This document shows, one piece after another, positions 13,196 through 25,455 of a DNA stretch of 50,127 nt (its first letter is position 1; each line of letters opens with the position of its first letter). This DNA is from Pseudomonadota bacterium (GTDB lineage: Bacteria > Pseudomonadota > Alphaproteobacteria > Geminicoccales > Geminicoccaceae): the NCBI GenBank assembly GCA_030549795.1, contig JAUQQO010000048.1, forward strand, positions 1 to 50,127, given 5' to 3'. The notes beneath the pieces were generated by a model. The model was not told where the DNA came from. It saw only the letters and a list, made by a program, of their open reading frames with translations, and ran no database searches. Made by a program: the position numbers and the translations under genes.

Positions 13196-14548
13196 TCATG
13201 CGAGCAACCGAGCCAATAGCGCGCGGTAGCGCGCGAACAGGCGGGCACGCGCGAGGTGGCGGCCGTCCGCGACGAGCCGGCGGCCGCGCACCCACACCTC
13301 TTTGACCGCGCTTTTGCCAGCGCAGAAGATCCAACCGTCGAGCAGCTGGTCGCCGCGCCGACCGACAAGGGCAGGATGGTCGGGATCGAGGACCAGGAAA
13401 TCGGCCCACCCGCCGGGGCACAAGCCCGCCGGTTGGCGGTCGAGGGCGCGGGCACCGCCCAAAAGCGCGGATTCGAACAACACCCGCCCGGTCGAGCGCA
13501 TGGGCTCGGCAAGGCAGTTGCGCCGACCCAAGGCCAAGCGCTGGGAATATTCGAGTTGCCGCAGCTCGGCTGCGGCATCGATCTGCACATTCGAATCGCT
13601 GCCCACCCCGAAGCTGCCGCCTGAAGCGGCGTAGGCAACGGCGGGGAAGATCCCATCACCCAGATTGGCCTCGGTGATGGGACAGAGCCCCACCGTGGCG
13701 GGCGAAGCGGCCAGACGTTGCCGCTCTTCGGCACTGGCATGGGTCGCGTGGATCACGCACAGCCGCGCTGAAAGCCCGATCGTCGCCTCGATGAGGGCGA
13801 TCGGCGTGGTGCCGTGCACCGCCCGACAGGCCTCGACCTCGCGCGGCTGTTCGCTTGCGTGGATGTGCACGGGACCGCTCGGGAACTGCTCGAAGAGCGC
13901 CCGCAGTTGCGGTGGCGTCACCGCGCGGATCGAATGCGGCGCAATCCCGATGTTCGCGCCCGAAAGCGTACGCACCGCGCGCCCGGCTGCTTCGTGAACC
14001 CGGGCAAAGAGCTCAAGATCGCACACAAAGCGCCGCTGCGCTGGGCTCGGTGCTGCCCCGCCGACATCGCCATGGGCGTAAAAGCTCGGCAACAGCGTAA
14101 GGCCGATGCCGCTTGTGCGCGCCGCCTCGACGATCCGCCAGGACAGCTCACCCGGATCAGCATAAGGGCAACCGTTCGGATCGTGATGCACGTAGTGGAA
14201 CTCGCCCACTGCCGTGAAGCCGGCTTCCAGCATCTCGGCGTAAGCAAAGGCGGCGATCGTCTCCACCTCATCGGGGCCGAGGCGGGCGAGAAACCGGTAC
14301 ATGAGCTCGCGCCAGGACCAGAAACTGTCCTCTCCCGGCCCCGCCACCTCGGCCAAGCCGGCCATGGCGCGCTGGAAGGCGTGGCTGTGGAGGTTGCACA
14401 GGCCCGGCAGCACGATCCCGCGCAACAGTTCCCCCTCCCCCGCCCCCGGCGTGACCGCGGCGATCCGCCCATCGGCGTCGATGCGCAGCGTGACGCCCTC
14501 GCTCCATCCTTCGGGGAGGAGTGCGGTTTGCAGGCAGAGGACGGTCAT
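13196..14548 (-). CDS. hutF: Formimidoylglutamate deiminase
   Basis: 450 residues. This is an amidohydrolase-superfamily enzyme with metal-site [12 protein letters not shown] near residue 55, [10 protein letters not shown], an IHASEQ block, VIHATHAS and [17 protein letters not shown] containing the catalytic Asp. These are the HutF hallmarks. It converts N-formimino-L-glutamate to N-formyl-L-glutamate and ammonia, the step that makes HutG a formylglutamate deformylase here. It is transcribed divergently from hutI across 82 bases that hold a putative HutC site. The first residues [15 protein letters not shown] fit the family start. Confidence 0.94.
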
Positions 14549-14630: not shown

Positions 14631-15829
14631 GTGCGAGTCGACCGGCTGTTCACCGATGTACGGCTTATGACGATGTCCCCCGACCGACCGGGACTGGGGG
14701 TGATCGAGAAGGGCGTCCTTGCCACCCGCAACGGCCGCATCGCCTGGGTCGGGCCGCACTGCGAAGCCCCCGTCTTCCACGCCGCCGAAGAGATCAAGGG
14801 CGAGGGGCGCTGGCTCACCCCTGGCTTGATCGACTGCCATACCCATCTCGTGTGGGCGGGCGATCGCGCCCGCGAGTTCGAGCTGCGCCTCGAGGGCGTA
14901 TCGTATGAGGAGATCGCCCGTCAGGGCGGTGGGATCCTCGCGACCGTGCGGGCGACCCGCGCCGCCTCGCGCGAGGAACTCTTGCGCGCGAGCCTTACTC
15001 GGCTCGATGCGCTGCTCGCCGAGGGTGTGACCACGGTTGAGATCAAATCCGGCTACGGGCTCGAGCCAGCGACCGAGTACCGCCAACTCGAGGTGGCGGC
15101 AGCCCTCGAATCCGCGCGTCCGGTGCGCATCGCGCGCACCTTTTTGGGAGCCCACACTGTTCCTCCCGAGTATGCGAGCGACCGCGCCGGCTACATCGAG
15201 CTCTTGTGCTCAACCATGATCCCGCACGTGGCGCGTGAACGGCTCGCCTCGGCGGTGGACGTGTTCTGCGAGCGGATCGCTTTTTCGCCCGAAGAGACCA
15301 AGCGTATTTTCGAAGCGGCGCGCGCTCATGGTCTTGCCGTCAAGCTCCATGCCGATCAGCTCTCCAATTCGGGCGGGGCTGCGCTCGCCGCCGCCTTTCA
15401 CGCCTTAAGCGCCGATCATCTCGAGTACACCGACAGCGAAGGCGTTCAGGCGATGGCGCGCGCCGGGACGGTGGCGGTGTTGCTCCCCGGCGCCTTTTAT
15501 TGTCTGCGCGAGACCAAGCTGCCGCCGATCGAAAACTTCCGCCGCGCCGGGGTACCGATGGCGGTGGCGACCGACTGCAACCCCGGCACCTCGCCCATGG
15601 TCTCACTGCTCTTGGCGCTCAACATGGCGGCCACACTCTTTCGCCTCACGGTCAGCGAATGTCTGCTCGGCGTGACCCGCCACGCGGCGCGGGCGCTCGG
15701 GCTCGAGGACGACCGCGGCACGCTCGAGATCGGCAAGCGAGCCGATCTTGCGCTCTGGTCGATCGAACAGCCGGCCGAGCTCGTCTACTGGATGGGCGCG
15801 CGGCCGCTCCATCAGCGCTGGGTGGGGGC

Positions 15830-15833
<4 letters not shown>
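14631..15833 (+). CDS. hutI: Imidazolonepropionase
   Basis: 400 residues from GTG 14631, with GGGGAGG upstream. Amidohydrolase fold with metal-binding [18 protein letters not shown] around residue 70, [35 protein letters not shown] and [10 protein letters not shown]. It hydrolyses imidazolone-5-propionate to N-formimino-L-glutamate, step three of histidine breakdown. It is the first gene of the plus-strand hut operon and overlaps hutH by an ATGA. Length and motifs are standard. Confidence 0.95.
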
Positions 15834-17370
<1,537 letters not shown>

Positions 17371-17374
<4 letters not shown>

Positions 17375-18204
17375 GCGCGGTCGACCGCATCGGCCCAATC
17401 GAGATCTCTTGGGGCGATTCGCCGCTCGTCCTCAGCCAGCCCCACGCCGGTACCTTCCTTCCACCCGAGGTGGCCGCGGCACTGACCGAGGAGGGACGCG
17501 CGCTGCCCGATACCGACTGGTGGATCGATCGGCTCTATGCGCCCTTGGCGGCGCAGTTCGCCGCCACCGTCGTGCGCACCCCGATCAGCCGCTATGTGAT
17601 CGACGTCAACCGGGATCCCTCGGGCGCCTCGCTCTATCCCGGGCGGACGACGACGGATCTCGTGCCCAAAGAGACGTTCGATGGCGAGCCTCTCTGGCGC
17701 GCCGGGGCGGAGCCTTCGGCTGAAGAGGTGAACCGGCGCAAAAGGCTTTATTTCGAGCCCTATCACGCGGCGCTCGCAGCAGCCATCGCGCGCACGCGGC
17801 TGCGCTTTGGCTTTTGCCTCTTGTGGGATTGCCATTCCATCCGCTCGGTGGTGCCGCGGCTCTTTGAGGGAAGGCTCCCGACCGTCAATTTCGGCACCTT
17901 CGATGGGCGGTCCTGTTCGCCTGCTCTGCGCGCCGCAGCTGAGCGCGTGCTCGCAAGCGCGCAGGAGAGCTTCGTCATCGACGGGCGCTTTAAGGGTGGC
18001 TGGATCACCCGCTATTGGGGCCGGCCGGCGGAGAAGATCGAGGCGGTGCAGATGGAGCTCGCCCAGCGGGCCTATATGCACGAGGCGCCGCCTTGGACCT
18101 TCAGCGAAGAACGGGCCGAGCGCATCCGCACCCTCTTTGCCCAACTCCTGACCACCTTGCTCGAGGAGGCCGGGCGGCTGCACGCCCCCGGAAGCAACCC
18201 ATGA
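17371..18204 (+). CDS. hutG: N-formylglutamate deformylase
   Basis: 277 residues from ATG 17371, overlapping the hutH stop by four bases. It contains [44 protein letters not shown] and [11 protein letters not shown], the ordered blocks of the HutG N-formylglutamate amidohydrolase family; the HAG, D/W and DCHS histidines and acids are the expected zinc ligands. It releases formate and L-glutamate from N-formyl-L-glutamate, the last step of this route. Its presence with hutF shows the two-step formylglutamate branch rather than direct formiminoglutamase. Confidence 0.94.
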
Positions 18205-19886
18205 CCGATCCGCGTCTCGACAACAGCCGCAAGATCCGCGCCCCCCGCGGTCCCACGCGCCGCTGCAAGAGTTGGGCGGCGGAAGGGGCGCTGCGGATGC
18301 TCATGAACAATCTCGACCCCGAGGTGGCCGAGCGGCCGGAAGCGCTCATCGTTTACGGCGGCATCGGCCGCGCGGCGCGCAACTGGGAGTGTTTCGACCG
18401 CATCGTCGCCGCCCTCGAGCGGCTGGAGCCGGATGAGACGCTCCTCGTGCAGTCCGGCAAGCCGGTCGGCATCTTCCGCACCTTCCCCGACGCGCCGCGG
18501 GTGCTGATTGCCAATTCCAACCTGGTCGCCAAATGGGCGACCTGGGAGGAATTCGACCGGCTCGATCGCCTCGGGCTCATGATGTACGGTCAAATGACCG
18601 CCGGCTCTTGGATCTACATCGGCAGCCAAGGCATCGTGCAGGGAACTTACGAGACCTTCGCCGAGGTCGGCCGGCGGCACTATGGCGGGAACTTGCGCGG
18701 CAAGTGGATCTTGACCGCGGGCTTAGGGGGCATGGGCGGTGCTCAGCCGCTTGCCGCGACCATGGCCGGTGCTTCGATCATCGCCATCGAGTGTCGGCCG
18801 TCGGCGATCGAGGCGCGGCTTAAAACGCGCTATCTCGACACCAAGGCGGATAGCCTGGACGAAGCGCTCGAGATCATCGACCGCCACCACCGCATGGGCA
18901 AACCGGTCTCGGTCGGCCTGCTCGGCAACGCGGCGGAAATCGTGCCCGAGATCGTACGCCGCGGCATTCGCCCCGATGTGGTGACCGATCAGACCTCGGC
19001 GCACGACCCCCTGCACGGCTATCTGCCCGCCGGCTGGACGCTCGCCGAGTGGGAGGAGCGCCAGGAGCGCGACCCCGAAGGCGTCAAGCTCGCCGCCAAG
19101 CGCTCGATGGCCATCCACGTCCAGGCCATGCTCGCGCTCTATCGGCAAGGCGTGCCGACCCTCGACTATGGCAACAACATTCGCCAGATGGCCAAAGATA
19201 TGGGGGTGGAGGACGCCTTCGCCTTCCCCGGCTTCGTGCCGGCCTACATCCGACCGATGTTCTGCCGCGGGCTCGGTCCCTTCCGCTGGGCGGCGCTCTC
19301 CGGCGATCCGGAAGACATCTACAAGACCGACGAAAAAGTCAAAGAACTCATCCCCGACGATCCGCACCTGCACAATTGGCTCGACATGGCGCGCCATAAG
19401 ATCACCTTCCAAGGCCTTCCCGCGCGCATTTGCTGGCTGGGTTTGGGCGACCGCCATCGCGTCGGCCTCGCCTTCAACGAGATGGTGGCCAAAGGCGAGC
19501 TCAAAGCCCCGATCGTGATCGGCCGCGACCATCTCGATTCCGGTTCGGTCGCCTCGCCCAACCGCGAGACCGAGGCGATGAAGGACGGCTCGGATGCGGT
19601 CGCCGACTGGCCGCTCCTCAACGCGCTTTTGAACTGCGCATCAGGGGCGAGCTGGGTGTCCATCCACCACGGCGGCGGAGTGGGCATCGGCTATTCCCAG
19701 CACGCGGGGATGGTGGTGGTCGCCGACGGCACGCCCGAGGCGGCGCGCCGGCTCGAGCGGGTGCTCTTCAACGACCCCGGCACCGGTGTGATGCGCCATG
19801 CCGATGCCGGCTATGAGGAGGCGATCGCCTGCGCCAAGGAGAAGGGGCTGGTTCTGCCGGCGCTCGGCATCAACTTCCCGCTTTAA
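18201..19886 (+). CDS. hutU: Urocanate hydratase
   Basis: 561 residues from ATG 18201, overlapping the hutG stop. It has the opening [65 protein letters not shown], the NAD-binding [12 protein letters not shown] and [20 protein letters not shown] with the cysteine of the active site. It uses tightly bound NAD+ as an electrophile to hydrate urocanate to imidazolonepropionate. Length is typical (about 555-560). It sits between hutG and the second hutH-like gene, 10 bases from the latter. Confidence 0.96.
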
Positions 19887-19896
19887 GGCGCTCCCC

Positions 19897-21408
19897 GTGA
19901 TCGTCCTCGACGGCCGCTCGCTTTCGATCGCCGACGTCGTGATGATCGCCCGCGAGGGCGCTTCGGTCGTCCTCGCCCCAGCAGCACGCGCGCGCGTGGC
20001 CGCCTGCTCCGACTTCCTCGATCGGCTGATCGCCGATGGCACCCCCATCTACGGCATCACCACCGGCTTCGGCGCCCTCGACGGGCGCAAGGTGGGCCAA
20101 GAGGAGAGCGATCAGCTGCAGCTCAACCTCATCCGCAGCCACGCCGCCGGCGTGGGTGAGCCGATGGCTGCCGATGAGGTGCGGGCGATGATGGCGATCC
20201 GCGCCAACTGTCTTGCCGGTGGGCAGACGGGGGTGCGCCCCTCGACCCTCGAGGCCCTGCTCGCGCTCCTCGAGGCGCAAGTGATCCCGCGCGTGCCGCG
20301 CCGCGGCTCGGTCGGTGCCTGCGGCGATCTCGCGCCGCTTGCGCATATGGCGCTCGTGCTCGTGGGCGAAGGGCAGGCCCGGCTCGCTGAGGGGCCCTGG
20401 CGTCCGGGAGCGGACGTGTTGGCCGAAGTGGGCCTCGCGCCCATCCGCTTGAGCGGCCGCGACGGCATTGCGCTCATCAACGGCACCGAACAGACCACCG
20501 CGATCGGCTGTCTTGCGGTCGCCGATGCGCGCCGGCTCGTGCGCCTTGCGGAAGCGGTCGCCGCCATGAGCCTCGAGGTGCTGGGAGCGGTCGAGGACAG
20601 TTTCGATGCGCGCGTAGCGCTCGCCAAACCGCATCCCGGCCAGATCGCCACCTCCGAGGCCCTGCGGCGGTGGTGCGCCGGCTCGAAAGCGGTCGCTGCA
20701 CCGCGCGCCGGACGGCTACGGGATGCGCTTTCCTTGCGCTGCATCCCACAAGTGCTGGGCGCGGTGCGCGATGCCGTCGAACGCGCCGCGGAAGTGCTCG
20801 AGATCGAGATCAACGCCACCAACGACAATCCGATCTTCGACCGGATCCAAGGCTTCGTGACCTCGAACTCGGGTAATTTCCACGGCCAAGCAGTGGCCGA
20901 AGTGCTCGACCATCTCGCCCAAGCGCTCACCTCTCTTGCCGTGATCAGCGAGCGGCGCACGGCGCGCATGGTGGACGAGAAGCTCTCCAACGGTCTGCCG
21001 CCCTTTCTGATCCATCCCAAGGCACCGGCCGGTCTCAACAGTGGCCTTATGCTCGCCCAATACACCGCAGCGGCGCTCGTAGCCGAGCTGCGCATGCGGG
21101 CGGTGCCGGCCGCGATCCAGTCGATCCCGACCTGTGCGAATACCGAGGACCATGTGCCGATGGCACCGCTCGCCGCCGAGCGGGCCCGCTTTGCGGTCGC
21201 AACCGCCCGCACGGTCGTTGCCATCGAGGCCTTGTGCGCAGCGCAGGCCTACGCCATCCGCGAGCTCGCGCCCGCACCCGCTCTCGAGCCCATTCTCGCG
21301 GCGATTCGCGCACGCGTCCCGGTCCGCATCGCGGACCGCGAAGTGGGCAGGGACATCGAAGAGGTCGAGGCGGCACTCGCGGAACTCCCGGCGGAGCTTC
21401 TCGCGTGA
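19897..21408 (+). CDS. HutH-like MIO-family enzyme with Ala-Cys-Gly triad (variant paralogue)
   Basis: 503 residues from GTG 19897, with AAGGCG upstream. The fold is clearly that of aromatic amino acid ammonia-lyases: Tyr52 in IYGITTGFG, His82 in RSHAAGVGEP, Asn195 in LINGTE, NFHGQAVAEV and Glu417. Two key sites differ. The cofactor triad is Ala141-Cys142-Gly143 in [14 protein letters not shown] instead of ASG, and the block RDALSLRCIPQ has Leu in place of the conserved Tyr (Tyr280 of canonical HutH), keeping Arg281. The late motif is NTEDHV, not NQEDHV. A Ser-to-Cys change at the cofactor site is known to keep activity in P. putida HutH, so MIO may still form. It may act on another amino acid or imidazole compound, or be a mutase or weak lyase. 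Confidence 0.85.
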   Translation: MIVLDGRSLSIADVVMIAREGASVVLAPAARARVAACSDFLDRLIADGTPIYGITTGFGALDGRKVGQEESDQLQLNLIRSHAAGVGEPMAADEVRAMMAIRANCLAGGQTGVRPSTLEALLALLEAQVIPRVPRRGSVGACGDLAPLAHMALVLVGEGQARLAEGPWRPGADVLAEVGLAPIRLSGRDGIALINGTEQTTAIGCLAVADARRLVRLAEAVAAMSLEVLGAVEDSFDARVALAKPHPGQIATSEALRRWCAGSKAVAAPRAGRLRDALSLRCIPQVLGAVRDAVERAAEVLEIEINATNDNPIFDRIQGFVTSNSGNFHGQAVAEVLDHLAQALTSLAVISERRTARMVDEKLSNGLPPFLIHPKAPAGLNSGLMLAQYTAAALVAELRMRAVPAAIQSIPTCANTEDHVPMAPLAAERARFAVATARTVVAIEALCAAQAYAIRELAPAPALEPILAAIRARVPVRIADREVGRDIEEVEAALAELPAELLA

Positions 21409-21478: not shown

Positions 21479-22573
21479 ATGAAACGGCGCGCTGTGGTTT
21501 TCGGCACGGGGGCGGCCGCGGCAGCGGCGGCTTCGAGCTTTCCCAAGCCCGCCATCTCCCAGCAGCGGATCGAATGGCGGATGGTCACCGCTTGGCCGCG
21601 CAACCTGCCCGGCCCGGGCGTGGCGGCGCAGAAGGTGGCGGACCGCATCGCCGCGGTGACCGGCGGTCGCATCACCGTGAAGCTCTTCGCCGCGGGCGAG
21701 ATCGTTCCCGCAACCGGCGTGTTCGACGCGGTTGCGGCCGGTACCGCTGATCTCTACCACGCGGTTCCCGCTTATTGGGTGTCGAAGTCGCCCGGCATCG
21801 GCTTCTTCGGCTCCTTCCCCTTCGGCATGACGGCTTACGAGCAACAGGCCTGGCTCATGCACGGGGGTGGCCAAGCACTTTACGATGAGATCTACGCCCG
21901 CTTCAACATCAAGCCTTTCAATACCGGCAATTCGGGGCCGCAGTGGCTCGGCTGGTTCCGTAAAGAAATCAAGTCGATCGACGATTTCCGCGGCCTGCGC
22001 TTCCGCACCGCCGGGCTCGGCGCTGAAATGTTCCGCCGCGCCGGCGCTTCCGTGGTGACGCTTCCGGCGGGTGAGATCTTCCAGGCGCTGCAGTCCGGCA
22101 CGATCGACGCCGCCGAGTTCGTCGGTCCCTTCTCGGATGCGCCCTTGGGCCTGCACCAGGTGGCCAAGAACTACTACTACCCGGGCGTGCAGGAGCCTTC
22201 CTCGGCTGAGGAGATCGGCATCAACCTCGAGCGCTGGAACGCGCTCTCCGATGATCTCAAGGCAGCCATCCGCTACGCCTGCCAGTCGGTGGCAGAAGAA
22301 GTGACCACCGAATACGACACTCGGCATCCGCAAGCACTCGCACAACTGGTGAGCCAACACGGCGTGCAGGTCAAAGAGGCGCCGCAAGATCTCTTGATCG
22401 CGCTGGGCAACGCCGCCGGTCAAATGCTCGCCGAATACCGCGAGCATCAGGACCCGCTCGTCAAGAAGATCGCAAACGCCTACGCCGAGTTCCGCAACCG
22501 TAGCCAAAGCTACATGATGCAGAGCTACGGGGCGATCTTCAACGCCCGCGCCCTGCCCATCAAGTGGGGCTGA
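21479..22573 (+). CDS. dctP: TRAP transporter solute-binding protein (DctP type)
   Basis: 364 residues from ATG 21479, with GGGAGGAAGAG upstream. The N-terminus MKRRAVVFGTGAAAAAAASS is a twin-arginine-like export signal, followed by FPKPAIS. The mature part has WRMVTAWPRNLPGPG, the family arginine block FRGLRFRTAGLGAEMFRRAGA that salt-bridges a ligand carboxylate, and ALQSGTIDAAEFVGP. The FPKPAI...W.M.TSWP pattern places it near the TakP-type branch for keto- or aromatic acids. Its place inside the hut operon suggests urocanate, histidine or another imidazole acid as ligand. That is inference. Confidence 0.88.
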   Translation: MKRRAVVFGTGAAAAAAASSFPKPAISQQRIEWRMVTAWPRNLPGPGVAAQKVADRIAAVTGGRITVKLFAAGEIVPATGVFDAVAAGTADLYHAVPAYWVSKSPGIGFFGSFPFGMTAYEQQAWLMHGGGQALYDEIYARFNIKPFNTGNSGPQWLGWFRKEIKSIDDFRGLRFRTAGLGAEMFRRAGASVVTLPAGEIFQALQSGTIDAAEFVGPFSDAPLGLHQVAKNYYYPGVQEPSSAEEIGINLERWNALSDDLKAAIRYACQSVAEEVTTEYDTRHPQALAQLVSQHGVQVKEAPQDLLIALGNAAGQMLAEYREHQDPLVKKIANAYAEFRNRSQSYMMQSYGAIFNARALPIKWG

Positions 22574-23160
22574 ACTCGTCGCAGGGCACGCGGCCGCGGG
22601 GAGCGATCCGCCTGCTCCTCGCGGCTGCACGCGGGCTCGATGCGCTCGTCCGTACGGTCGGGCGCACCGTGCGCTGGCTGGCCGTCGTCTTGGTGCTCGT
22701 CCAGCTCGCGGTCGTCATCCTGCGCTATGCCTATGGTTCGAGTTTCATTTGGATGCAGGAGAGCGTGATCTATACCCACGCCGCGCTGTTCATGCTGGCG
22801 ATCGGCTATACCTTTCTCGTCGACGGACATGTGCGCGTGGATGTCTTTTTCGCCCGCTGGTCGCCGCGCACCAAGGCGCTCGTCGACATTGTGGGCATAC
22901 TCTTCGCCGCCTTACCTTTTTGCGCCCTCGTCATTTGGGCCTCTTGGGGTTACGTCGCGGTCTCCTTCCGCTTGGGCGAGGGCCCCATGCAGGTGGGCGG
23001 GTTGCCCCTCTTGCCCTGGCTTAAGAGCCTGATCCCGGCGATGGCGGTCCTGCTCGCGCTCGCATCGCTTGCGGTCCTGCTGCGCGCGCTGGCCGTCCTT
23101 CTGGGCGGAGCAGCGAGCCATCTGCCCGAACGCGGCGGCCACGGCGCCCCCACGCCATGA
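22564..23160 (+). CDS. dctQ: TRAP transporter small membrane subunit (DctQ)
   Basis: 198 residues from GTG 22564, overlapping the end of dctP by 10 bases; this is the most upstream start and could be a little later. Four membrane segments are visible: about residues 38-58, 75-93, 108-130 and 155-180. The block RYAYGSSFIWMQESVIYTHAALFMLAIGY is typical of DctQ subunits. It forms the membrane unit with DctM. It overlaps dctM by an ATGA. Confidence 0.86.
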   Translation: MGLNSSQGTRPRGAIRLLLAAARGLDALVRTVGRTVRWLAVVLVLVQLAVVILRYAYGSSFIWMQESVIYTHAALFMLAIGYTFLVDGHVRVDVFFARWSPRTKALVDIVGILFAALPFCALVIWASWGYVAVSFRLGEGPMQVGGLPLLPWLKSLIPAMAVLLALASLAVLLRALAVLLGGAASHLPERGGHGAPTP

Positions 23161-24728
23161 GCCCGGTTTGGCTTTCCGGCGCGCTCGATGCGCTCATGTT
23201 CCTTGCGCTGTGCGGGCTCATCCTCACGGGCGTGCCGGTCGTCTTCATCTTGACCGGGACCGCGATCGTCTTCGGCGGGCTCGGGATCCTCTTGGGCGTC
23301 TTGGACCCCTTTTTGTTGCGCGCCCTCGCCCAGCGCATCTTCGGCACGATGACGAGCGAAGTGCTCATCGCCATCCCGCTCTTCGTCTTCATGGGGATGA
23401 TGCTCGAGCGCTCGCGCATCGCTGAAGAGCTTTTGGAAGCGATGGGCCGGCTCTTCGGCCGCGTGCGCGGCGGGCTCGCGGTTTCGGTTTCGGTCGTAGG
23501 CGCGCTTCTTGCCGCCTCCACCGGCATCGTCGGCGCCACGGTCGTGACCATGGGCCTTATGGCGCTGCCCGCCATGCTGCGCCGCGGCTACGACAAGTCC
23601 TTCGCCTCCGGGTCCATCTGCGCCGCCGGCACGCTTGGCCAGATCATCCCGCCCTCCACCGTCATGGTGATCCTGGGCGAGGTCCTCTCCGCCGCCTACC
23701 AACAGGCCCAGCTCGCGCAAGGCAAGTTCACGGTCGAAACGGTTTCGGTCGGCCAGCTCTTCGCCGGTGCTATGGTCCCCGGCCTCGTGCTGGTCGGCCT
23801 CTACATCCTCTACCAGCTCGTGCGCGCCTGGCTCGATCCGCGCTGTGCCCCGGCCATCCCGGTGGAAGAACTCGGCCGCGTGCGCAGCCGCGAGCTCGTT
23901 GCCGTGCTCGTCCCACCGGTGGTCCTCATCGTCGCGGTCTTGGGCTCGATCTTGGGTGGAATCGCCACCCCGACCGAAGCCGCCGCGGTGGGCGCTGTGG
24001 GTGCGACGCTGTTGGCGGCGCGGCGTGCGGGCGGACTCGCAGCGCGCCTTGCCCCTTTCGCTGGCCTCGCCGCCTTGGGCCTCGCGCTCTTGGGCGCCCT
24101 CTTCGATATGCGCATCGGCCGCGAATTCGTGCCCATGGGCGACCGTCTTGCCATGCTCGTCGCCTTCGGCCTCGTCCTCGTGCTCGCTTTTGGGATCCTC
24201 GCGGCGCTCATCCAGTTGTGGCGGTCGGGCGTGCTCGGCCAAGTCGCCGAGAGCACGATGACGATCACCGCGATGATCTTCGCCACCCTTTTGGGTGCCA
24301 CCCTCTTCGCCCTCGTCTTCCGCGGCCTCGGCGGCGAAGAGACGGTGCGGGAACTTTTGAGCTCTTTGCCCGGCGGTCAGTGGGGGGCGCTGCTCTCGGT
24401 CATGGCCGCCATGTTTTTTATGGGTTTCTTCCTCGATTTCGTCGAGATCACCATCATCATCATCCCAATCGTCGGTCCCATCCTTTTGGGGATGGGCTTG
24501 GATCCGATCTGGCTCGGCGTGCTCGTCGCGCTCAACATCCAGACGAGTTTTCTCACGCCCCCCTTCGGCTTCGCACTCTTCTATCTTGCGGGGGTGGCCT
24601 CGCGCGAGGTGAGCGCACGCGACATCTACCGCGGCATCGTGCCCTTCGTTGCGCTGCAGCTCGTGGCCCTTGCCATCGTCATCGCCTTCCCCGGGCTTGC
24701 CACCTGGTTGCCGAACCGGCTGTTCTGA
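23157..24728 (+). CDS. dctM: TRAP transporter large permease subunit (DctM)
   Basis: 523 residues from ATG 23157. It is a polytopic membrane protein with DctM hallmarks: IPLFVFMGMMLERSRIAEELLEAM, GRVRGGLAVSVSVVGALLAASTG, GTLGQIIPPSTVMVILGE and, near the C-terminus, NIQTSFLTPPFGFALFYLAGVA. Ordinary DctM is about 430 residues. Here an extra stretch of about 80-90 residues with two added helices (about residues 285-375) separates the two halves, as seen in a subset of TRAP systems paired with TakP-like binding proteins. It forms the ion-driven channel for the DctP ligand. Confidence 0.9.
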   Translation: MSPVWLSGALDALMFLALCGLILTGVPVVFILTGTAIVFGGLGILLGVLDPFLLRALAQRIFGTMTSEVLIAIPLFVFMGMMLERSRIAEELLEAMGRLFGRVRGGLAVSVSVVGALLAASTGIVGATVVTMGLMALPAMLRRGYDKSFASGSICAAGTLGQIIPPSTVMVILGEVLSAAYQQAQLAQGKFTVETVSVGQLFAGAMVPGLVLVGLYILYQLVRAWLDPRCAPAIPVEELGRVRSRELVAVLVPPVVLIVAVLGSILGGIATPTEAAAVGAVGATLLAARRAGGLAARLAPFAGLAALGLALLGALFDMRIGREFVPMGDRLAMLVAFGLVLVLAFGILAALIQLWRSGVLGQVAESTMTITAMIFATLLGATLFALVFRGLGGEETVRELLSSLPGGQWGALLSVMAAMFFMGFFLDFVEITIIIIPIVGPILLGMGLDPIWLGVLVALNIQTSFLTPPFGFALFYLAGVASREVSARDIYRGIVPFVALQLVALAIVIAFPGLATWLPNRLF

Positions 24729-24735
24729 GGCGACG

Positions 24736-25455
24736 GTGTCGAAACGCGACCTCCCGCTCTACGAACGCATCAAACAGGCGATCCGCGTCGACATCGCCGA
24801 GGGACGGCTCGTCCCCGGCGCGCGGGTGCCCTCCGAACACGAGCTCATGCGGCGCTTCGGCTGCTCGCGGATGACCGCGCACCGCGCCCTGCGCGAACTC
24901 GCAGCCGAAGGGCTCGTGGTGCGCGCCGTCGGCTCGGGCAGCTATGTGGCGGAGCGGCGGCTCGAGCTCTCAGCGCTCTTGGTTCCCGACATCGCGCAAG
25001 AAATTCGCAGCTCGGGGCGCAGCTATCGGGGCGAGGTGGTGGCGTGTGCGCGCGCCCCGGCACCGGCCGAGATCGCTTGCGCGCTCGAGCTCCCACCCCA
25101 TACAGAAGCCTTTCACCTCCTCATGGTGCACTGGGCGGATGCGGTGCCGCTGCAGCTCGAGGACCGCTGGGTCAATCCCGCCTTTGCACCCGACTTCCTC
25201 GCCCAAGACTTCAAGACGCGTACGCCCAACGCCTATCTGACCGCGGTTGCCCCGGTGGACGAGGCGGAAGAGACGATCGAGGCGATCGCCGCCGATCGCA
25301 AGGTGGCGCGGCTATTAGGGATCCGCACCGGCGAGCCCTGTCTTGTGCTCACCCGGCGCACCTTCGCGCGCGGGATGTGGGCGACGACGGCGCGGCTCGT
25401 GGGGGCGGGCAAGCGCTGGCGCCTGTTCGCGCGCTTCCGCCCGCCCCAGCCCTAG
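24736..25455 (+). CDS. hutC: Histidine-utilisation repressor (GntR/HutC family)
   Basis: 239 residues from GTG 24736, seven bases after dctM. An N-terminal winged helix (residues 8-73) carries YERIKQAIRVDIAEGRLVPGARVPSE and CSRMTAHRALRELAAEGLV. A UTRA ligand domain follows, with LEDRWVNPAFAPDF and a closing LVGAGKRWRLFARF close to the HutC consensus. HutC family repressors release DNA when they bind urocanate. It closes the operon, so the repressor is probably under its own control. The palindrome at 14577 is the candidate site. Confidence 0.92.
   Translation: MSKRDLPLYERIKQAIRVDIAEGRLVPGARVPSEHELMRRFGCSRMTAHRALRELAAEGLVVRAVGSGSYVAERRLELSALLVPDIAQEIRSSGRSYRGEVVACARAPAPAEIACALELPPHTEAFHLLMVHWADAVPLQLEDRWVNPAFAPDFLAQDFKTRTPNAYLTAVAPVDEAEETIEAIAADRKVARLLGIRTGEPCLVLTRRTFARGMWATTARLVGAGKRWRLFARFRPPQP

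Follow-up and report, generated by a model that had tools for sequence, protein, structure and literature searches.

An Ala-Cys-Gly paralogue of histidine ammonia-lyase in a hut-TRAP operon

The DNA analysed here, which we refer to as the window (the whole stretch of 50,127 nucleotides, contig 4 of a 3.16 Mb genome in 57 contigs), carries a hut operon with two genes of the histidine ammonia-lyase (HAL) family. One is a canonical hutH; the other, hutH2, has lost residues that mark histidases, and its presence raises the question of what a second, altered HAL does in a histidine pathway. Here we describe the gene, its distribution and its neighbours, and weigh the functions that it may have.

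A second HAL-family gene in the hut operon

Nine + strand genes run from hutI to hutC, overlapping or separated by no more than 70 bp, and hutF is divergent:

13196-14548, - strand: hutF, formiminoglutamate deiminase, divergent (TIGR02022)
14631-15833, + strand: hutI, imidazolonepropionase (TIGR01224, 483 bits)
15830-17374, + strand: hutH, canonical histidine ammonia-lyase with Ala-Ser-Gly (ASG) and Tyr (TIGR01225, 638.7 bits)
17371-18204, + strand: hutG, N-formylglutamate deformylase (TIGR02017)
18201-19886, + strand: hutU, ordinary urocanate hydratase, stop codon 10 bp before hutH2 (TIGR01228, 959.6 bits)
19897-21408, + strand: hutH2, HAL-family paralogue with an Ala-Cys-Gly (ACG) triad, Arg275, Leu278 and Thr416-Glu417
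21479-22573, + strand: dctP, TRAP solute-binding protein, nearest to keto-acid-binding TRAP proteins
22564-23160, + strand: dctQ, small TRAP permease subunit (no NCBIfam match; named from its position between dctP and dctM and from homologues in the same place)
23157-24728, + strand: dctM, large TRAP permease subunit (TIGR00786)
24736-25455, + strand: hutC, GntR-family hut repressor (TIGR02018)

The initial annotation had described hutH as canonical, and hutH2 as a paralogue with ACG at the cofactor site, Leu for the conserved Tyr and Thr for the Gln before the late Glu, and each of these readings was borne out. HutH, read at 15830-17374, has A142-S143-G144 and Tyr280. The hutH2 frame starts with GTG, encodes 503 amino acids without internal stops, and its product is 43% identical to HutH over the local match. 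Its triad codons at 20317-20325 are GCC TGC GGC (A141-C142-G143), and GCG CTT TCC encodes Ala-Leu-Ser, the Leu278 codon being 20728-20730. In phmmer alignments Leu278 lies opposite residue 280 of the Pseudomonas putida HAL (one structure of which, 1gkj, is a Y280F mutant according to its PDB title) and Thr416 opposite Gln413; HutH2 also has a one-residue insertion, Asn324. A change absent from that annotation is Arg275 (codon 20719-20721), which matches P. putida Gln277.

The remaining active site is largely preserved. In GkHAL, eight active-site residues were mutated (Tyr52, His82, Asn194, Gln274, Tyr277, Arg280, Phe325 and Glu411), and changes at Tyr52, His82, Asn194 and Glu411 gave inactive enzymes (PMC11432326, excerpt). 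HutH2 keeps six of the eight, the exceptions being Gln274 to Arg and Tyr277 to Leu; its Tyr52, His82, Asn195 and Glu417 are the four essential residues, and Arg281, Phe328 and the Ser81/His82 pair, the substrate switch of GkHAL (PMC11432326, excerpt), are also retained. The initial annotation had pointed to Tyr280, here Leu278, as a catalytic residue in HAL/PAL/TAL; its loss alone predicts no inactivity, because the inner-loop Tyr52, of a kind essential in HAL and PAL, is retained.

HutH2 matches PF00221 with 559.7 bits and scores 542.6 bits on TIGR01225 ('hutH'), 3.5 bits above the cut-off of 539.15, as do its relatives in loci L003 (542.8) and L014 (542.1); four of the seven clade members scored fall below (L006, L016, L020 and L019, whose N-terminus is cut). 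Because the window protein passes this NCBIfam cut-off, it would be named a histidase by automatic annotation, and a possible new route into the hut pathway would be concealed. The aminomutase role that had been proposed finds no support in TIGR03832, on which HutH2 scores 389.2 bits, under the cut-off of 501, and HutH 314. The X-Ser-Gly triad from which MIO is described as derived (PMC9002059, excerpt) is not present, the middle residue being Cys. An AlphaFold model, made from a 17-row alignment that includes canonical HutH (mean pLDDT 88.8), gives query-normalised TM-scores of 0.89-0.92 against HALs (0.90-0.92 for the P. putida chains) and 0.90-0.91 against ergothionase. Residues 276-278, the changed stretch, form the only segment with pLDDT below 50, and the model is therefore silent on the geometry there. 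HutH2 has a HAL fold but lacks two sequence features that define canonical histidases, and it is not to be counted as one.

Conservation and loss of hutH2

Relatives were sought in genome_contigs (one genome per species, 84,980 species), where exact peptide matches are needed and the counts are therefore lower bounds. Nineteen relatives were found. By the terms of the initial annotation, the idea of a special function would have fallen had close relatives all kept ASG and Tyr, but 18 of the 19 share ACG, RLRDxL and Thr/Ser-Glu; the exception, in L021, is an ASG/Tyr protein that is 39% identical and the most distant of the set. A whole-genome search among alphaproteobacteria, in which six of 385 genomes matched (E <= 1e-115) and the window's genus accounted for two, added one distinct species (G225, a complete genome, locus L089). 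The class of the gammaproteobacterial bin gave matches in 19 of 321 genomes (E <= 1e-90; 20 loci) and the phylum of the Chloroflexota bin in 42 of 251 (E <= 1e-110; 30 loci read), each set of loci containing only the clade member already known. Order-level searches around G415 (3 of 17 genomes matched) and G421 (1 of 150) gave no clade members beyond those known. The clade has 20 members including the window's, mostly from alphaproteobacteria.

We aligned 112 rows, comprising the 20 ACG proteins, 87 rows of other HALs (85 genes) and five very divergent sequences. Cys142, Arg275 and Leu278 each occur in 20/20 clade rows and in 0/87 of the others, where the middle triad residue is always Ser (87/87), Tyr280 is always present (87/87) and Gln277 is replaced once, by His (86/87). 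At the Gln413 position the clade has 18 Thr and two Ser, and since Thr also occurs in two of the 87 other rows this change is a weaker marker. Eighteen positions in all separate the clade from other HALs at the thresholds used, whereas Ser81, His82, Tyr52, Arg281, Phe328, Glu417 and Asn195 are each retained in all 20 clade rows. Cys142 is encoded by TGC in 16 members and by TGT in four; Ser is one base away, and there are no reversions (0/20). We conclude from the alignment that the Cys/Arg/Leu set is neither a collection of private mutations nor due to chance.

A phylogeny asking whether ACG+Leu proteins form a clade with conserved hut-TRAP context had been suggested; they do form one clade, and hut or TRAP genes recur beside them. 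In quick trees without bootstrap, the 20 ACG rows fall on one side of a branch (SH-aLRT 99), and without the 18 diagnostic positions and the rows of greatest divergence the support is 100; four HALs from the Chloroflexota sample may be the sister group (support 58). Across six pairs from four genomes of the window's genus, dN/dS was 0.16-0.21 for HutH2 and 0.15-0.23 for HutH, with no stops (0.05-0.09 for HutU and 0.04-0.08 for DctP). In the genomes tested, purifying selection thus acts on HutH2 much as on canonical HutH, and the description of an intact gene in a tight operon holds.

A plasmid or phage origin was rejected: all 872 matches to plasmid records are below 60% identity (the 60 listed reach at most 47.6%), and a scan of viral contigs gave no relative. 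Our search of the open-licence literature, with subscription journals outside its scope, found no report of an Ala-Cys-Gly HAL. Two clade records have curious titles. L016 is titled Oceanobacillus sp. and has 70.7% G+C, which is odd for Oceanobacillus, and L009 is titled Anaerolineae although its genome falls into the same order as the genomes of L010 and L013, which are titled alphaproteobacteria; either the titles look wrong or the assemblies look mixed.

Natural deletions were found close to the window. In its genus, four of six genomes searched have hutH2; the other two, G004 and G005, lack it and retain the rest of the hut-TRAP operon, with DctP 94-96% identical to that of the window. Their hutU-dctP intervals measure 290 bp (G004, L179 7943-8232) and 178 bp (G005, L178 12077-12254) against 1592 bp in the window. 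In searches of these two stretches only, the G004 interval retained a remnant of HutH2 residues 463-502 (67.5% identical, E 3e-12, with a weaker N-terminal match) and that of G005 a remnant of residues 478-503 (73%, E 6e-8). From these remnants we conclude that hutH2 was formerly present in both genomes and was then lost while the TRAP genes were retained, probably on two occasions. As the operon outlived the gene, hutH2 is an optional extra on it, and the hutH2-deleted sister genomes offer a natural comparison with and without the gene.

Neighbouring genes and partner enzymes

We surveyed the context of hutH2 in 20 loci (the window, L003-L020 and L089). HutU lies within the same fetched stretch in 13 of them, and a TRAP system of one orthologous type adjoins HutH2 in nine; L018 shows only dctP before its contig end, and the system of L013 is divergent. 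Absences in L018 (3.4 kb) and L013 (8.3 kb) mean little because the fetched stretches are short. A branched-chain-type ABC system adjoins HutH2 in L014 and L020 (2/20), with solute-binding proteins below the curated PRK15404 cut-off and the other ABC genes judged from N-terminal sequence only, and L017 encodes, directly downstream, a PF02133 permease of the NCS1 type that scores under the NCBIfam ncs1 cut-off. Altogether, HutU, an importer or both stand beside HutH2 in 18/20 loci. By tblastn, L015 and L019 have neither a hut gene nor a TRAP homologue nearby, though importers of other kinds may flank L015. A stretch of about 0.8 kb in which no gene is called separates hutU from hutH2 in L006 and L007.

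HutH2 and HutH occur together in six of the 20 fetched loci (the window, L003, L004, L005, L014 and L020). At the genome level, a full canonical HutH was found in 17 of 19 (the window's own genome and the 18 of L003-L020), with a contig-end fragment only in G417 and none in G414. The latter bin, the source of L012, has HutH2 and HutU and may be a case of HutH2 without HutH.

A dedicated second HutU was rejected, as 20 of 22 genomes (the window's own, the 18 of L003-L020, G225, and G004 and G005 without HutH2) have a single HutU match. G413 and G415 each have two contig-end pieces that together fit one gene, and the single match of G420 is a contig-end piece below the cut-off. The HutUs of all four HutH2 loci tested are ordinary, scoring 930-966 bits on the hutU model (cut-off 375); on the models for thiourocanate hydratase (cut-off 930) and S-methylthiourocanate hydratase (cut-off 880) they reach 639-735, so that in these four loci HutU is no thiourocanate hydratase partner. 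The window's HutU, which is below both of these cut-offs, is the sole match in its genome.

Among themselves the nine DctPs linked to HutH2 share 56-96% identity, versus 32-54% with two other DctPs from these loci. The PDB entries that match best are 7ug8, a 'ketoacid-binding protein', 4yzz/4yic and 2hzk/2hzl, the last of which we take to be the alpha-keto-acid protein TakP; these similarities suggest a monocarboxylate ligand. The TRAP importer is no proof of a special substrate, because TRAP genes also sit in hut operons without HutH2. A literature search on TRAP together with urocanate or histidine yielded, by title among the matches listed, no urocanate TRAP system. We also considered N-acyl-histidine as a substrate, since deacylase, amidase and oligopeptide ABC genes lie upstream of hutC in L006 (scanned) and L007 (likened to the L006 set by N-terminal sequence only), but they are not at that place in L008 and the idea was dropped.

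Possible functions of HutH2

Tentatively, and a little short of calling it probable, we favour the reading that HutH2 is a catalytically active HAL paralogue with a changed substrate or chemistry, one that probably feeds another compound into the histidine pathway. The substrate would be an imidazole carboxylate without a free alpha-ammonium group, candidates including imidazole-lactate, N-substituted histidines and isomers of urocanate. It would enter through the TRAP system, and beta-elimination or isomerisation would turn it into trans-urocanate for HutU. Loss of Tyr280 and the cation gained in the pocket would disfavour plain histidine, left to canonical HutH, and Cys142 could either cyclise to MIO with loss of H2S or remain a free thiol.

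We take Tyr280 and Gln277 to be situated at the amine/cofactor end of the HAL site, and Gln to Arg and Tyr to Leu would then leave the ring side intact and alter the other end. Tyr280 and the Ser-Gly triad are kept jointly in 87 of 87 rows and lost jointly in 25 of 25, and ergothionase, with Leu at this position, has no MIO (PMC13405746, excerpt); it is for these reasons that we place the change at the amine/cofactor end and suppose a substrate without free ammonium. In GkHAL, Asn194, Gln274 and Arg280 jointly bind the ammonium and anchor the carboxylate, without being assigned singly; Gln274 may hold the geometry of Arg280 and Tyr52, and Tyr277 may assist Glu411 (PMC11432326, excerpt). Another aromatic amino acid, named in the initial annotation as a possible substrate, is unlikely because the Ser/His switch is of the HAL type (PMC11432326, excerpt). 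With this switch and the essential residues complete, histidine may still bind and react in HutH2. The P. putida S143C laboratory mutant is reportedly active, so ACG alone need not change function.

A rival reading is an ordinary histidase isozyme, in which Cys142 would form MIO as in that mutant, the enzyme would put up with the Tyr and Gln changes, and HutH2 would serve as another L-histidine ammonia-lyase whose kinetics differ (e.g., in temperature or histidine concentration). Its place within a hut operon, the TIGR01225 score of the window protein, the retention of Ser81-His82, Tyr52, Asn195, Arg281, Phe328 and Glu417, and Met385, invariant in 17 rows at the site of a Met described as conserved in all bacterial HALs, agree with this. 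However, the window's operon already has a canonical HutH, the three coupled changes are fixed in all 20 members without reversion, more than half of the clade members scored are under the TIGR01225 cut-off, and in GkHAL the Q274N enzyme was less efficient and Y277F could not be produced (PMC11432326, excerpt). We consider the isozyme unlikely. HAL active sites are shared between subunits and mixed tetramers could matter, and the initial annotation had offered a regulatory pseudoenzyme; an inactive HutH2 might regulate HutH in this way, or sense urocanate, given that the cofactor serine is replaced along with two active-site residues and that hutH2 and hutH are co-operonic in the window. Yet six of the eight active-site residues are invariant, which disfavours it, purifying selection equals that on HutH, the replacements are fixed rather than drifting, and the two proteins meet in only six of 20 fetched loci, making this the least probable of the explanations considered.

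Two further alternatives, both very unlikely in our view, concern specific reactions leading to urocanate. A trimethylamine lyase of the ergothionase type could convert hercynine (histidine betaine) to urocanate and trimethylamine without MIO, a product that would suit an ordinary HutU, and Tyr280 is Leu as in the ergothionase of T. denticola; against it, the triad is ACG rather than Gly-Glu-Gly-Asp, identity is only 27-28%, we know of no TakP-like TRAP protein that acts as a betaine importer, and no trimethylamine dehydrogenase was seen among the part of the neighbours scanned. Two FMN/NAD flavoproteins taken up as candidates for that enzyme were rejected on their best PDB matches, in L010 (2,4-dienoyl-CoA reductase, 748 bits versus 127 for trimethylamine dehydrogenase) and in L016 ('NCR', 6qkg, 222 bits versus 141). 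A cis-to-trans urocanate isomerase would use Cys142 as the nucleophile of a reversible conjugate addition and supply HutU from imported cis-urocanate. A bacterial cis-urocanate isomerase appears in the title of Hug et al. (1999); HutH2 proteins always have the Cys and have exchanged Tyr280 for Leu and Gln277 for Arg, HutU is often a neighbour, and the permease directly downstream in L017 is of the NCS1 type, as is a urocanate permease of Pseudomonas. However, the titles of the carrier records do not suggest cis-urocanate habitats, and urocanase-positive bacteria, to which a 2025 title (Patra et al.) links cis-urocanate use, may not need HutH2. Micrococcus luteus converts cis- to trans-urocanate (PMC8145394, excerpt), but no Micrococcus appeared in the genome_contigs scan, with its exact peptide matches.

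We also speculate on a bolder reading, itself quite unlikely: the ACG clade may be a natural HAL derivative without classical MIO, in which a free Cys142 thiol and Arg275 convert a non-amino imidazole acid (cis-urocanate or imidazole-lactate) to trans-urocanate. If so, HutH2 would open a side entrance into histidine breakdown and, were cis-urocanate the substrate, hutH2 would be a candidate for the gene of the published bacterial isomerase. With a clade that always has Cys, together with Tyr280 to Leu and Gln277 to Arg, one can test directly whether a HAL fold in nature works with a MIO derived from Cys or with none, and which coupled changes this requires.

Our searches also returned other unusual HAL-family proteins. 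L096 (5900-7489), L097 (5790-7397) and L098 (5430-7646), found in genomes related to that of the window, carry Leu in place of Tyr280 and no intact ASG, and group with the T. denticola ergothionase, subject to a long-branch warning; they are candidate ergothionase-like lyases. Very divergent PF00221 proteins in L087 (4557-5984) and L088 (235-1716) lack the Ser/His switch, have Asn in place of the late Glu, and read Gly-Gly-Ala-Gly-Glu in the region of the ASG triad. In L070 (311-2746, G411) and L071 (547-2982, G412), both on the - strand, one 812-codon frame joins an N-terminal HutH to a C-terminal HutG that is 50-51% identical to the window's, apparently a natural HutH-HutG fusion. PA5093 was dropped as a histidase, since it is called hutG in PMC12772324 (excerpt).

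HutH1 of Pseudomonas fluorescens SBW25 counts among the known systems nearest to HutH2. As for the others, HutH2 shares its superfamily with tyrosine 2,3-aminomutase and outscores HutH on the TIGR03832 model, but it remains below the cut-off, has a HAL-type Ser/His switch and belongs to a hut operon, not a biosynthetic cluster. With the T. denticola ergothionase (6s7j) it shares a PF00221-type fold, Leu at the Tyr280 position and the lack of ASG; the two differ at the triad site and in overall identity, and they occupy separate tree branches, with the warning that the ergothionase branch is long. A further near system is HutH itself, represented by the P. putida HAL (1b8f/1gkm) and TIGR01225, with which HutH2 has in common the fold, the Ser/His switch, the Glu, Asn, Arg and Phe residues, the inner-loop Tyr and the hut operon, and from which it departs in having Cys for Ser143, Leu for Tyr280, Arg for Gln277, Thr or Ser for Gln413, and the inserted Asn324.
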